From: Nitrosovibrio sp. Nv4
Lineage (GTDB): Bacteria > Pseudomonadota > Alphaproteobacteria > Acetobacterales > Acetobacteraceae
Length of the DNA: 40,165 nucleotides
Direction: 5' to 3'
Assembly (NCBI GenBank): GCA_943330455.2
Contig: CALQHT020000017.1
Coordinates: 1 to 40,165, forward strand
In this document: piece by piece, positions 11,477 to 32,202 of the stretch
Numbering within the stretch: the stretch's first letter is position 1
Layout of the letters: each line of letters opens with the position of its first letter
The notes under the pieces: generated by a model
The model's database searches: none
Seen by the model: the letters and a program-made list of their open reading frames with translations, nothing else
Told to the model about the DNA's origin: nothing
Position numbers and translations under genes: made by a program

Positions 11477-11540
11477 TGTTTATTTGTGTCACCGGTAGCA
11501 GTTGGCAGTTTCCGACCGCTTGCAGAGCAACTCCACCGCT

Positions 11541-11812
11541 GGCACGGCCGCAATCGCACCTCTTCGTGCCCTTCGTGTCTACCATGAAAATAGAACCCGG
11601 ATGCCGCGGAAACGGCGGAAAGTCGCCATTTTCTTCCATGGGGGTGCGGCCGCGGCCGCTGGTTAACTTCGTGGTGGAGAGTCGCGGAGCCGCGGTTCGT
11701 ACCCCCCCTATCCAATCGGACGTTCCCGGACAGGCAAGGTGTCTTGGTTCCGTCCGCAATTCTCCACCACGAAGACTCGAAGGGCACGAAGAAGTACGAT
11801 TGCGGCCGTGCC
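11541..11812. mobile_element. MITE-like element with 40-bp terminal inverted repeats
   Basis: The ends 11541-11580 and 11773-11812 are inverted copies matching at 37 of 40 positions. A second, nested perfect 14-bp inverted pair (CTTCGTGGTGGAGA at 11667-11680, TCTCCACCACGAAG at 11761-11774) lies inside. No convincing ORF or transposase is seen within 272 bp, and I see no clear target-site duplication. It could be a non-autonomous transposon relic or a large structured repeat. The end motif with alternating CTTCGTG/CCTTCG resembles dispersed repeats seen in several bacterial groups. Confidence 0.5.
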
Positions 11813-11876
11813 ACTGATGGGCGCCGTCGGACCGAGGGCGAAAGCTTGCATCCCAATAGATACGCGATGACCAAGA

Positions 11877-15766: not shown

Positions 15767-15851
<85 letters not shown>

Positions 15852-23007: not shown

Positions 23008-23082
23008 GGGCGGTTAGCTCAGCGGTAGAGCGTCTCGTTTACACCGAGAGGGTCGGCGGTTCGAAACCGTCACCGCCCACCA
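23008..23082 (+). tRNA. tRNA-Val (anticodon UAC)
   Basis: 75 nt with encoded CCA. Acceptor stem GGGCGGT/ACCGCCC, D-arm TTAGCTCAGCGGTAGAGC, anticodon stem around TTTACAC (anticodon TAC), T-arm GGTTCGAAACC. It converges with the pyruvate kinase gene. Confidence 0.97.
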
Positions 23083-28511: not shown

Positions 28512-28614
28512 GTGTCCATCCCCAGAGTCGGGTTGCACCGGATGCAACCCTTTGACGGACGGTATTCCTACCTTACATGCAGAGAGATTGCAGCAGACCA
28601 AGGATCAGCGCCCG

Positions 28615-30402
28615 ATGTCCGAGACCAGCCTGGCCGTAGCCGCCGCCGAACCTCTGCCGGCCTGGGATCTGTCCGATCTTTACCCCTCGCCCGACAGCCC
28701 GTCCGTCGCCACGGATTTTGAGCGGTCGGCCTCGCAGGCCAAGGCGTTCTCGACGGCCTATGCCGGCAAGCTCGCCACTTTGCCCGGCGCCGCCCTGGCC
28801 GCGGCCATCGCGGAATTCGAGCGGATTGAGGAAATCCTGGGCCGTTTGGCGTCCTACGCCAGCCTGTTGTTTGCCGGCGATTCCACCGATCCGGTGGTCG
28901 CGCAGTTTTATCAGACTGTGAATGAGCGGGTGACGACCATCAGCAGCGACCTGCTGTTCTTCACCCTGGAACTGAACCGCCTGGACGATGCGGTGCTGGA
29001 CCGCAAACTGGCGGACCCGGCTTTGGCTCGGTATCGGCCGTGGCTGCGCGATCTGCGTGTATTCCGTCCGCATCAACTGGCGGACGATCTGGAAAAGCTG
29101 CTGCACGAGAAGGAAATCACCGGCCATTCCGCCTGGAACCGGCTGTTCGATGAGACGATCGCGGCGATGCGGGTTCCCCTGGGCGGTGAGGACCTGACCA
29201 TCAGCGGCGTGCTGAACAAGATGTCCGACCGCGATCGGACGGTGCGGGAAGCTGCTGGCAAGGCCATCGGCGAGGCGTTCAATCAGAATTTGCGGCTGTT
29301 TTCGTTGATCACCAACACCTTGGCCAAGGACAAGGAGATCATCGACACGTGGCGGCACTATCCTCGCCCGGGCAGCTATCGCAACCGCTCCAACATGGTG
29401 GAAGACGAGGTTGTGGATGCGTTGGTGAGCGCCGTTCGCGGTTCCTATCCTCGGTTGGCACATCGGTACTACAGCATGAAAGCGCGGTGGCTGGGGCTGC
29501 CGAAGTTGCAGCATTGGGATCGCAACGCGCCGCTGCCGCAGGATGACGACCGGATTATCCCGTGGGAAGAGGCTCGCGACCGGGTTCTGACCGCCTATGG
29601 CGCGTTCAGCCCGGAATTGGCCTCGGTCGGCAAGCGGTTCTTCGACAAGCCGTGGATCGACGCCACCTTGAAGCCCGGCAAGTCCGGCGGGGCGTTCGCG
29701 CATCCGACGGTGCCGGCCGCGCATCCGTATTTGCTGGTGAATTATCATGGGCGGACCAGGGATGTGATGACCCTGGCGCATGAGTTGGGGCATGGCGTGC
29801 ACCAGATCCTGGCCGGCGGGCAGGGTTACCTGATGTCCGGCACGCCGCTGACTCTGGCCGAAACCGCCAGCGTGTTCGGGGAGATGCTGACGTTCCGCGC
29901 TCTGCTGGACAGTGCGACTCCGGCACAACGGCGGATCATGCTGGCGTCCAAGGTGGAGGACATGTTGAACACGGTGGTGCGCCAGGTGGCGTTCTATCGG
30001 TTCGAGGCGCTGTTGCACGACGAACGCCGCAAGGGCGAATTGCTGCCCGAGCGGATCGGCGAGTTGTGGTTGCAGGTGCAGACCGAAAGCCTGGGGCCGG
30101 CGTTCGAGTTCACGCCGGAATACAGCGTGTTCTGGGCTTATGTGCCGCATTTCATCCACTCGCCGTTTTATGTGTATGCGTATGCGTTCGGCGATTGTCT
30201 GGTGAACGCGCTGTATTCGGTGTTCCAGAATGGCCATCCGGGCTTCCAGGCGAAGTATCTGGACATGCTGCGGGCTGGTGGAACGAAGCGTCACAAGGAA
30301 TTGCTGGCGCCGTTCGGCCTGGATGCGTCGGACCCCGCGTTCTGGACGCGGGGGTTGGATGTGATCGCTGGGTTTATCGATGAGTTGGAGACGGGGGAGT
30401 GA
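28615..30402 (+). CDS. pepF: Oligoendopeptidase F (M3B metallopeptidase)
   Basis: 595 residues. The zinc-binding motif HELGH is at 389-393 (LAHELGHGVHQ), with the third ligand expected in LAETASVFGEML. The N-terminal helical part (WDLSDLYPSPDSPSVATDFE) and the C-terminal FVYAYAFGDCLVNALYSVFQ-like segment (here FYVYAYAFGDCLVNALYSVF) match the PepF/M3 family. It cleaves short peptides in the cytoplasm. The start has only AAGGAT about 10 nt upstream. The gene ends in GTGA, overlapping a GTG that opens the DUF559 reading frame. Confidence 0.95.
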   Translation: MSETSLAVAAAEPLPAWDLSDLYPSPDSPSVATDFERSASQAKAFSTAYAGKLATLPGAALAAAIAEFERIEEILGRLASYASLLFAGDSTDPVVAQFYQTVNERVTTISSDLLFFTLELNRLDDAVLDRKLADPALARYRPWLRDLRVFRPHQLADDLEKLLHEKEITGHSAWNRLFDETIAAMRVPLGGEDLTISGVLNKMSDRDRTVREAAGKAIGEAFNQNLRLFSLITNTLAKDKEIIDTWRHYPRPGSYRNRSNMVEDEVVDALVSAVRGSYPRLAHRYYSMKARWLGLPKLQHWDRNAPLPQDDDRIIPWEEARDRVLTAYGAFSPELASVGKRFFDKPWIDATLKPGKSGGAFAHPTVPAAHPYLLVNYHGRTRDVMTLAHELGHGVHQILAGGQGYLMSGTPLTLAETASVFGEMLTFRALLDSATPAQRRIMLASKVEDMLNTVVRQVAFYRFEALLHDERRKGELLPERIGELWLQVQTESLGPAFEFTPEYSVFWAYVPHFIHSPFYVYAYAFGDCLVNALYSVFQNGHPGFQAKYLDMLRAGGTKRHKELLAPFGLDASDPAFWTRGLDVIAGFIDELETGE

Positions 30403-30869
30403 CAAGTCATGCCACTCCCCCTCCCCTTGCGGGAGGGGGCCGGGGGGAGGGGGCCGCGCCGCCGGGAGCCTCTCTTTTAAAGCACGCCAAGTCCATGCGG
30501 CAGGATGCGACCCCGGCTGAGCGTCGACTTTGGGCTGGCGTCCGTAATCGCCAATGTGGAGGGTTGAAGTTCCGGCGGCAGGTTCCAATCGGTCCGTTCA
30601 TTGCTGACTTCTACTGTGCTTCTGAGCGTTTGGTCGTTGAATTGGACGGTGTTTCGCACATCGATTCGGTGACGGATGGTGCCCGCGATGCCTGGATGGC
30701 GGCGCAGGTGTTGCGTGTACTGCGGTTCTCCAATCGGGACGTTTTGGGGAATTTGGAGGGGGTGTTGATCAGTATCCAACAGGCTGTGGCGCGGCCCCCT
30801 CCCCCCGGCCCCCTCCCGCAAGGGGAGGGGGAGTCGTTTTCAAGCCCCATCGCTTCCCATGTCCGGTAG
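30399..30869 (+). CDS. DUF559 (Vsr-like, PD-(D/E)XK) nuclease-like protein within an inverted-repeat cassette
   Basis: The open frame has 156 codons from a GTG overlapping the pepF stop. The conserved domain starts near an internal ATG at 30495 (MRQDATPAERRLWAGVRNRQ) and contains FRRQVPIGPFIADFYC and RLVVELDGVSH, then RDAWMAAQVLRVLRF and RDVLGNLEGVL. This is the DUF559 core related to very-short-patch-repair endonucleases, with the putative catalytic Asp and ExD intact. Both flanks of the frame are the 47-bp inverted repeats, translated as Pro/Gly/Glu-rich tails (GGGRGEG, PLPQGEGES). The frame also runs 11 nt into the next gene. Function is not established; nuclease activity is inferred from the fold. 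Confidence 0.8.
   Translation: MTSHATPPPLAGGGRGEGAAPPGASLLKHAKSMRQDATPAERRLWAGVRNRQCGGLKFRRQVPIGPFIADFYCASERLVVELDGVSHIDSVTDGARDAWMAAQVLRVLRFSNRDVLGNLEGVLISIQQAVARPPPPGPLPQGEGESFSSPIASHVR
30414..30834. mobile_element. DUF559 cassette bounded by perfect 47-bp inverted repeats
   Basis: Bases 30414-30460 and 30788-30834 are exact inverted copies, 47 of 47. Each copy can also fold on itself (CCCCCTCCC-cttgc-GGGAGGGGG at 30417-30439). The DUF559 domain fills the interior. No transposase and no clear target duplication are visible. Removing the cassette would leave pepF and the ABC1-family gene about 36 bp apart, a normal operon spacing. It resembles in layout, not in sequence, a REP-associated gene flanked by palindromes. 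Confidence 0.65.
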
Positions 30870-32202
30870 CAATCTCTTCGGGGAACTGCGGCGGTTTGCG
30901 CGGACGTCTGGCGCCGTTGGGGGCATTGCCGCCCGGGTTGCCGGGGAGCGGGTCTTCGGCATCAAGACCAACCGCGCCTCCCACGCAGAGGACCTAAAAA
31001 CCATTCTTGGCGGGCTGAAAGGTCCGCTGATGAAGGTGGCGCAGTTCCTGTCCACCGTGCCGGATGCGCTGCCCGCGGAATATGCCGCGGAGCTGGCTCA
31101 GTTGCAGGCGAATGCGCCAGCCATGGGCTGGTCTTTCGTGCGGCGCCGCATGGCCAGCGAGTTGGGGCCGGACTGGCGATCTCGCTTTGCCGCGTTCGAC
31201 CAGACCGCCTCGGCCGCGGCGTCGCTGGGGCAGGTGCATCGGGCGCGCCTGCCGGATGGGCGAGAGGTGGCGTGCAAGCTGCAATACCCGGATATGCCCA
31301 GCACGGTGGAGGCCGATCTACGGCAGTTGCGTATGGCCATGGCGATCTACCATCGTATGGACAACGCAATCCAGCACGAGGAGATCTACAAGGAACTGAC
31401 CGAGCGACTGCGCGAAGAATTGGACTACGGCCGCGAAGCCGCGCAGATGCGTCTGTATGGGCTGATGCTGGCCGTACATCCGACGGTGCATGTGCCGTCG
31501 CCGGTGGCGGAGTACAGCACCGACCGACTGCTGACCATGACCTGGTTGGATGGCCGCCCATTGATGCACCGGCTGGCCGAGGACCCTCCACAGGATGAAC
31601 GCAACCGCATTGCCGAGGCGTTGTTTCGCGCCTGGTATGTGCCGTTCTACCGCTATGGCGTGATCCACGGCGACCCCCACATGGGCAACTACCAGGTGCG
31701 GCCGGATGGGTCGGTGAATCTGCTGGATTTCGGTGCCATTCGCGTCTTCAACCCGAAATTCGTGCGCGGCGTGATCGATCTGTTTGAGGCGGTTCGCGAT
31801 CACGACGACGCCAAGGCGCATCACGCCTACGCGACCTGGGGCTTCACCGATCTGTCGCAGGAGAAGATGGAGGTGCTGAACCTGTGGGCTCGGTTCCTTT
31901 ACGAACCGCTGACCGAGGATCGCGTGCGACGCATCCAGGAAACCGATGATCCGATGTTCGGTCGCGCCGTGGCGGAAAAAGTCCATGCCGGGCTGAAACG
32001 GACGGGTGGCGTGAAGCCGCCCCGGGAGTTCGTGTTGATGGATCGGTCCGCGATTGGGTTGGGTGGCGTGTTCCTGCGCCTGAAGGCAGAGTTGAACTGG
32101 AGTCGCCTGTTCCACGAACTGATCGCCGATTTCGATGAAGCGGCACTGGCGGAACGTCAGGCGGCCGCGCTGGCTAAGGCCGGGGTGCCGACGGCGGGGT
32201 GA
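30859..32202 (+). CDS. ABC1/UbiB family atypical kinase-like protein
   Basis: 447 residues. Seen: LKGPLMKVAQFLSTVPDALP (the KxGQ-type extension, here KVAQ), the Ala-rich loop ASAAASLGQVHRARLPDG in place of a glycine-rich loop, VACKLQYP with the ATP-contacting Lys, VIHGDPHMGNY as catalytic loop and LLDFGAIR as metal-binding DFG-like loop. UbiB/ABC1 proteins support ubiquinone synthesis and have ATPase activity. The KxGQ Gly is Ala here, which is unusual. No Shine-Dalgarno precedes the ATG; the upstream bases are the end of the DUF559 cassette. Confidence 0.9.
   Translation: MSGSNLFGELRRFARTSGAVGGIAARVAGERVFGIKTNRASHAEDLKTILGGLKGPLMKVAQFLSTVPDALPAEYAAELAQLQANAPAMGWSFVRRRMASELGPDWRSRFAAFDQTASAAASLGQVHRARLPDGREVACKLQYPDMPSTVEADLRQLRMAMAIYHRMDNAIQHEEIYKELTERLREELDYGREAAQMRLYGLMLAVHPTVHVPSPVAEYSTDRLLTMTWLDGRPLMHRLAEDPPQDERNRIAEALFRAWYVPFYRYGVIHGDPHMGNYQVRPDGSVNLLDFGAIRVFNPKFVRGVIDLFEAVRDHDDAKAHHAYATWGFTDLSQEKMEVLNLWARFLYEPLTEDRVRRIQETDDPMFGRAVAEKVHAGLKRTGGVKPPREFVLMDRSAIGLGGVFLRLKAELNWSRLFHELIADFDEAALAERQAAALAKAGVPTAG

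Follow-up and report, generated by a model that had tools for sequence, protein, structure and literature searches.

The junction between a pepF-type oligopeptidase gene and an ABC1-type kinase gene in Nitrosovibrio sp. Nv4 raises the question of why a single gene of the DUF559 nuclease family should stand there between two exact inverted repeats. The stretch of DNA analysed (the window; assembly GCA_943330455.2, contig CALQHT020000017.1, positions 1-40,165, forward strand) is 40,165 nt long, and the genome it belongs to is designated G000. Repetitive extragenic palindromic (REP)-associated tyrosine transposases (RAYT), with their REP doublets forming hairpins (REPIN), are the known example of a repeat population partnered by a domesticated nuclease, and a preliminary description of this DNA had proposed a RAYT-like mobile or domesticated repeat-nuclease system. 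The locus is probably the gene-bearing copy of such a system, in which DUF559 is the dedicated nuclease, a PD-(D/E)XK analogue of RAYT-REPIN. Its features are as follows.

30399..30869, + strand: DUF559 (YcjD/Vsr-like PD-(D/E)XK) nuclease gene, from its open reading frame and the PF04480 profile; core domain at 30477-30788
30414..30460, + strand: left half-element, pointing into the DUF559 gene; its pattern fits 110 + 97 places in the genome
30417-30425, 30426-30430 and 30431-30439: pyrimidine arm, loop and purine arm of the left half-element
30440-30441 and from 30442: linker CC and third purine run, on the inner side of the left half-element
30788..30834, - strand: right half-element, an exact inverted copy; its third run ends at 30806, followed by the linker (30807-30808) and the hairpin (30809-30831)

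The two arms, 30414-30460 and 30788-30834, were found to be 47 nt each, 100% complementary and spaced 327 nt apart, with an internal hairpin, as first described. Each reads CCCCCTCCC-CTTGC-GGGAGGGGG and continues into a third purine run, GGGGGGAGGGG, which is the mirror image of the hairpin purine arm GGGAGGGGG. The frame was also confirmed to begin at a GTG overlapping the pepF TGA (30400-30402) and to end 11 nt within the ABC1 gene (ATG at 30859), the open frame running through both arms. The 32-nt arm core occurs twice in the window at up to 3 mismatches, and in 0 of 100 shuffles. As one arm folds, as a single strand, with an energy ordinary for its composition (z -0.14), the evidence for the arms is their repetition and not their energy. 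Perfect arm identity had been attributed to recent duplication or gene conversion; as the two arms of the orthologue in genome G135 (protein identical to that of L062) differ from each other, recent conversion between the arms in the window is suggested.

The window's own assembly (6.48 Mb, 470 contigs) was searched with a 77-nt query, which gave at least 74 matches (40 of 260 candidates scored). No further copy of the full-length 47-mer was present among the 74 matches listed, though the repeat core does extend beyond this locus, its inner 36-40 nt recurring genome-wide, mostly as inverted doublets. A strand-specific pattern for the half-element fitted 110 forward and 97 reverse places, a total of 207 oriented halves, which make up a REPIN-like family. 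Among the first 100 of these listed, inverted doublets take in 62, and the pairs closer than 1.5 kb comprise 31 inverted at 61-71 bp, one inverted at 385 bp and one on the same strand at 794 bp. The pair at 385 bp is the DUF559 locus, the sole inverted pair in that set with a gene-sized gap. Elsewhere across the genome the same two half-elements round a short spacer form non-autonomous doublets of ~100 bp. In the 54 distinct doublets read, which are those covered by the doublet statistics, the order is hairpin, short linker, third purine run, spacer and then the mirror image, and an outer 12-nt repeat (GGAGAAAATTCT or near-identical) surrounds most own-genome doublets. A genome-wide search found exactly one DUF559 gene.

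Some doublets (L220, L030, L149 and L224) are nested in longer inverted sequence starting near CGGCATTCACACATC, which forms a second repeat layer. The two halves of a doublet often have unlike linkers (TT opposite CC or CG in 23 of the 55 pairs counted), resembling the pairing of type A with type B reported for E. coli (PMC4666352). Contigs such as C25, C28, C96, C97, C326 and C119 end within or beside an element; as the assembly breaks at these repeats, the own-genome copy number is a lower bound. No Y1_Tnp gene (PF01797) was found in G000 or in the other 7 genomes of the genus that carry a population, in a search confined to that transposase family, and the 5 of 33 genus genomes that do have Y1_Tnp include none bearing a population. 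A RAYT in the host was therefore rejected.

The preliminary description had also predicted that such repeats favour DUF559 genes over other stretches of DNA. Ten DUF559 cores were aligned and led to 519 confirmed relatives, of which the best 80 from named genomes were used; among them are near-identical rows from Sphingomonas and Stutzerimonas, and two from the window's own genus. Flanks were scored by the best inverted repeat whose two arms lie on opposite sides, each no more than 250 nt away, and same-size windows shifted along the same loci served as controls. Of the 80 DUF559 loci, 44 scored at least 18, compared with 0 of the 563 shifted windows; a score of at least 14 was reached by 53 of 80 and 3 of 563, in line with that prediction. 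The 44 flanked loci include members of the Pseudomonadota, Planctomycetota and Myxococcota, and the sequence of the flanking palindrome varies from genome to genome.

The anatomy of the flanks was surveyed at 99 DUF559 loci, namely the 80 named loci and 19 from the family and genus. A pyrimidine-purine hairpin lies within ~260 nt of the gene at 88 of these, giving 152 arms in total, and the mirror core was found within 40 nt in 104 of the 152, compared with a mean of 44.5 and a maximum of 60 when tails were swapped. As many cores are symmetric, a mirror copy often cannot be told from a direct one, but among the asymmetric cores (n=46) there were 26 mirror and 13 direct matches. In 41 arms with one off-centre A, a set that leaves out three arms with a central A, a hand count placed the third-strand A/T on the mirrored side in 36, with 4 ties and 1 on the opposite side. 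The half-element is thus built like the published intrastrand triplex motif (TM/PIT), with a Y-R hairpin and a mirror third strand, and the association of DUF559 with inverted palindromes of this triplex type is strong. Mobility genes were sought near the published motifs and none is reported in the available text of PMC4666352.

Palindrome types were mapped onto a tree of 95 DUF559 proteins, which has few columns and many open forks. Labels were kept for 68 of the 95 rows, eight near-duplicates and the rows labelled none, other or symmetric having been dropped, and the typing rule is crude (it put L041, from an odd class, under B, for example). Palindrome type changes 23 times on the tree, compared with a mean of 35.6 and a minimum of 30 in 300 shuffles within host order. 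The Sphingomonadales part has 5 changes (mean 9.2 in within-order shuffles) and the part from the window's own family 2 changes (mean 4.4; as few changes in 2 of 300 shuffles). Palindrome type therefore tracks the DUF559 tree better than it tracks host order, and the co-variation of flanking repeats with protein clade that had been anticipated is present.

Gene and repeat population were compared in a family sample of 120 genomes, where a DUF559 gene was called strong and short at E <1e-13 in a frame of <320 aa; G095 (E 7.6e-11, 1675 aa) falls outside this table. Counts of A and B palindromes are 246/5, 77/1 and 38/12 in the A-type DUF559 genomes G000, G051 and G057, and 0/139, 0/87 and 0/19 in the B-type genomes G035, G063 and G015, with the B-type arms of G035 scoring just 14 against a shuffled maximum of 13. 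Counts in G026 (0/3), G033 (0/2) and G093 (0/2) agree, most of those copies being the flanks themselves. In G033, on contig C9 (L039, L269), the genome's only two counted type-B palindromes stand on either side of a DUF559 copy that is interrupted by an internal stop. A strong short DUF559 gene was present in 5 of the 10 family genomes with at least 10 A palindromes and in 10 of the 110 others (Fisher p 0.0027); G084 and G027, two of those five, have no A-type flanks.

Within the genus set of 33 genomes, a population being defined as at least 16 halves, an A-type DUF559 gene was found in 5 of the 8 genomes with a population and in 0 of the 25 others (p 2.4e-4). As the A-type definition itself uses the flanks, a count was made that ignores them, and any strong short DUF559 gene was present in 5 of the 8 population genomes compared with 2 of 25 (G133 and G140; p 0.004). 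G132 and G164 have a population but no gene, in assemblies 64% and 68% complete. The loop base of the arms recurs in the population once the DUF559 arms are left out: C in the arms and in 75 of 99 halves read in the window's own genome, A in the arms and in 16 of 16 halves in G158, and C in the arms and in 17 of 17 halves in G137.

Outside the family, a C-type population test used 50 of the 80 named loci, with the pattern run over 60 genomes. The median number of C palindromes was 99 in 13 type-C genomes, all with at least 5, compared with 0 in 10 type-A genomes, and the population test outside the family is weak, for reasons given below.

Whether the gene moves as a cassette was addressed at the junction itself, which is marked by two neighbouring genes.

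28552..30402, + strand: pepF-type oligopeptidase F (Peptidase_M3), upstream neighbour and junction marker; the start given, the frame's first TTG, is provisional
30859..32202, + strand: ABC1-type kinase, downstream neighbour, which adjoins pepF in 7 genomes of the genus that lack the element

The pepF ends were read in 22 genus genomes. The gene with its arms occupies the junction in three (G000, G135 and G137), and in seven pepF lies directly beside the ABC1 gene and the element is absent, with gaps of 36 nt in G140, 2 nt in G129, G128, G120 and G122, and 26 nt in G123, and an overlap in G134. These are empty sites of the kind that the preliminary description had looked to in relatives. The junction of G132 has a 60-nt gap holding a lone palindrome of the same type, the loop base of which is A, as in 17 of the 18 G132 halves read, and it looks like a scar. 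In the remaining 11 the ABC1 gene is non-adjacent or off the fragment. The flanks in G158 and G162 show the same pepF-ABC1 junction, as do those read in G051, which belongs to another genus. As the A-type gene is at this one junction in 5 of the 5 genus genomes that have it and in G051, a freely jumping cassette was rejected. With filled, empty and single-palindrome states at one junction, the DUF559 gene looks like a single copy kept vertically at one site and sometimes lost, not one that jumps. The RAYT-like repeat-nuclease system first proposed is supported, the results named as refuting it having been looked for and not obtained.

The window protein matches PF04480 at 110.9 bits (curated cut-off 20.6), which bears out the DUF559 assignment. 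In a 55-sequence alignment D46, E57, D59 and H63 are invariant, among others, and presumably have a catalytic role. The nearest NCBIfam model is PRK09767, which we take to be the YcjD model, and the window protein scores 84.2 on it, below the equivalog cut-off of 218. An AlphaFold2 model of the 110-residue core (pLDDT 91.2, pTM 0.84) matched best in the PDB an endonuclease-like protein (3hrl, Foldseek E 1.1e-8), then the catalytic domain of the homing endonuclease I-Bth0305I (3r3p, E 2.2e-4), with Vsr a weak structural match (1cw0, E 0.04). The ratio of nonsynonymous to synonymous substitution rates (dN/dS) is 0.13 for G000-G135 and 0.11 for G137-G162, two close pairs, showing that the gene is under purifying selection. 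YcjD has already been assigned to the PD-(D/E)XK superfamily (PMC1189080).

Elsewhere in the window, a second inverted repeat pair (11533-11580 and 11773-11820; 48 nt, 88% complementary, 192 nt apart) is unrelated in sequence to the DUF559 arms. The window also carries tRNA-Leu (15767-15851) and tRNA-Val (23008-23082) genes, and a defence-system scan gave 0 matches.

E. coli K-12 carries ycjD, annotated DUF559, the product of which scores 167 bits on PF04480. The E. coli control genome in the PF04480 searches gave no match, though K-12 YcjD scores so highly, and this control may lack ycjD. K-12 has 23 copies of the triplex motif. Downstream of ycjD (1351407-1351760, minus strand), at a distance of 167 nt, is copy 9 (1351204-1351239). 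The 3' end of ycjD itself is overlapped by a decayed hairpin resembling the motif, and no such motif was found on the upstream side, the triplex-motif sequence being confined to the downstream side. With 18 motif sites, at most about 36 neighbour genes and 4760 annotated features, the chance that one named gene is a neighbour is <1%. At least 80% of ycjD plus copy 9 was matched in 3364 of 5426 E. coli genomes, and 329 were without any match. Among 60 evenly spread rows, the median number of matching places is 4 in the 39 with ycjD (3 when the one at ycjD is set aside) and 2 in the 21 without it. A strain inspected for an empty ycjD site has other genes beside fabI, and the eef operon is reported at the ycjD-fabI place (PMC12817139). 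At fepB-entC (L276, L279), K-12 has a motif doublet, within ~186 bp of sequence, that strain H105 lacks; the difference includes a possible 3-bp TAA duplication, at one locus in two strains, and may instead reflect a deletion.

It is likely that the DUF559 protein acts on the palindromes, which it would bind and cut. The best reading is that it also spreads them, where we infer mobilisation, the copying route and the direction of causation. The nuclease would recognise the folded half-element, either the hairpin alone or the hairpin together with its third strand, and would cut at or beside it; the likeliest setting is the replication fork, with the DNA single-stranded or in cruciform. Repair or strand transfer may then copy doublets into new intergenic sites and keep the two arms alike. 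The single-copy gene would be inherited at one operon junction, with occasional loss leaving an empty junction or a lone palindrome, after which the repeat population may decay or persist. A wider proposal, to which we give an even chance, is that DUF559/YcjD proteins are the dedicated nucleases of intrastrand-triplex (TM/PIT) repeats in many bacteria including E. coli K-12, recognise the hairpin with its mirror third strand, and represent an independent PD-(D/E)XK route to REP-like populations.

The main rival to spreading is that the protein acts as a guardian and does not mobilise the repeats, being a structure-specific nuclease by which hairpins are resolved or trimmed and rearrangement is limited; the position of the gene would then arise because the repeats regulate it, and genomes with the nuclease would tolerate repeats better. 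The PD-(D/E)XK fold, single-copy inheritance at one junction, dN/dS of about 0.1 and the instability reported for triplex-motif loci in E. coli (PMC4666352) all suit such a role. However, guarding alone leaves unexplained why the half-elements flanking the gene both point inward, why palindromes differ between protein clades, and why arms and population have a loop base in common, and we consider it unlikely. It is less probable still that another enzyme moves the repeats in trans and that DUF559 is a passenger trapped between two halves. Several genomes do have many repeats and no detected DUF559 gene of this kind, as this would predict, but clade-matched palindromes flank this one gene family across several phyla and none of the 563 control windows, and Y1_Tnp, the one transposase family searched for, is absent from the 8 population genomes.

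A role in very-short-patch repair, with a Vsr-like protein tied to a cytosine methyltransferase and the palindromes incidental, would follow the case of the Caulobacter DUF559 protein VsrA, which has been tied to a solitary methyltransferase and DNA damage (PMC12907096), and the weak structural match to Vsr fits this. It gives no reason for clade-specific inverted palindromes around the gene, and is very unlikely. That the arms arose by chance or as an artefact of composition in GC-rich intergenic DNA, for which the ordinary folding energy of one arm could be cited, was rejected by both the window shuffles and the shifted windows and is the least credible of these explanations, hardly to be entertained.

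Several observations weigh against DUF559 as the dedicated nuclease that spreads these repeats. No flanking inverted repeat was found at score 18 for 36 of the 80 named loci, and several loci of the family sample have no flank above the shuffled null. The 10 family genomes noted above with fewer than 10 A palindromes still hold a strong short DUF559 gene, and populations occur in the family without a DUF559 gene of this kind (G014, with 142, and G078, G002, G114 and G092). In the genus, G166 has 118 halves and is rated 100% complete, with just a partial DUF559 match in a 240-aa frame. The outer 12-nt repeat is absent from the DUF559 copy; as it is also absent, by eye, from the doublets read in G158, G132 and G137, the inner part is taken to be the common unit. 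In the C-type test, 11 genomes with an unflanked DUF559 gene have a median of 64 C palindromes and up to 504, G050 and G133 have C-like DUF559 flanks yet 0 C palindromes, and the pattern over 60 genomes failed to separate flanked from unflanked DUF559 genomes, partly because it also fits part of type F and excludes loops of more than 8 nt, as in G050. For E. coli, the comparison of ycjD with motif count is weak and confounded by phylogroup, and an in-vivo footprint is reported to have given no support for a stable triplex (PMC4666352). A target-site duplication was not established, the TAA at fepB-entC being the one possible case.

If the proposed role of DUF559 is correct, a second, unrelated enzyme fills the RAYT-REPIN role, suggesting that such partnerships evolve repeatedly, and a family described as a protein of unknown function and present in many phyla gains a function. 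The family may keep or spread a common, unexplained class of bacterial DNA repeats, and would provide a testable partner for triplex-type repeats of open origin. As E. coli K-12 has both a DUF559 gene and 23 motif copies, the idea is testable in a laboratory strain. Among the papers listed in a literature search that left most subscription journals and preprints uncovered, none connected DUF559 with palindromic or triplex repeats, and an earlier description is possible. The name ycjD is missing from the main text of PMC4666352, and neither a nuclease nor a transposase is mentioned in the available part of PMC12306157.

Among known systems, elements with the terminal inverted repeats of miniature inverted-repeat transposable elements or insertion sequences are likewise short and non-autonomous and carry the ends of a gene-bearing copy, but here the gene copy is single, at a conserved junction, and has no classical transposase inside. 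I-Bth0305I, a mobile-intron endonuclease, and E. coli Vsr share the fold, at the Foldseek values given above, in another DNA context. E. coli YcjD belongs to the same Pfam family, whereas the window protein falls below the PRK09767 cut-off and the ycjD motif is on the downstream side only. The intrastrand triplex motifs (TM, TMECO and PIT; PMC4666352) have the same order of Y arm, loop, R arm, short linker and mirror purine run, occur in inverted pairs as here, and include copy 9 adjoining ycjD; they differ in that no mobility gene is reported in the available text, and the sequence classes found here differ from the E. coli one.

The closest comparison is with RAYT/REPIN (REPtron), the traits of which were taken in part from abstracts and from the available part of PMC3733652. 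Both have a nuclease gene between inverted palindromes, dispersed non-autonomous inverted doublets and a palindrome tied to the nuclease clade. Unlike the Y1 HUH tyrosine transposase, the enzyme here is a PD-(D/E)XK protein of the DUF559 family, and each half here is a hairpin plus a mirror third strand. No conserved GTAG or CGTC tag, as given in PMC3733652, was seen by eye next to the hairpin in the doublets read. CGTC repeats, mostly alphaproteobacterial, are reported there as apparently without a dedicated transposase. As the defining enzyme and tag are absent, the locus is not a member of the RAYT-REPIN family, though it would work like one.

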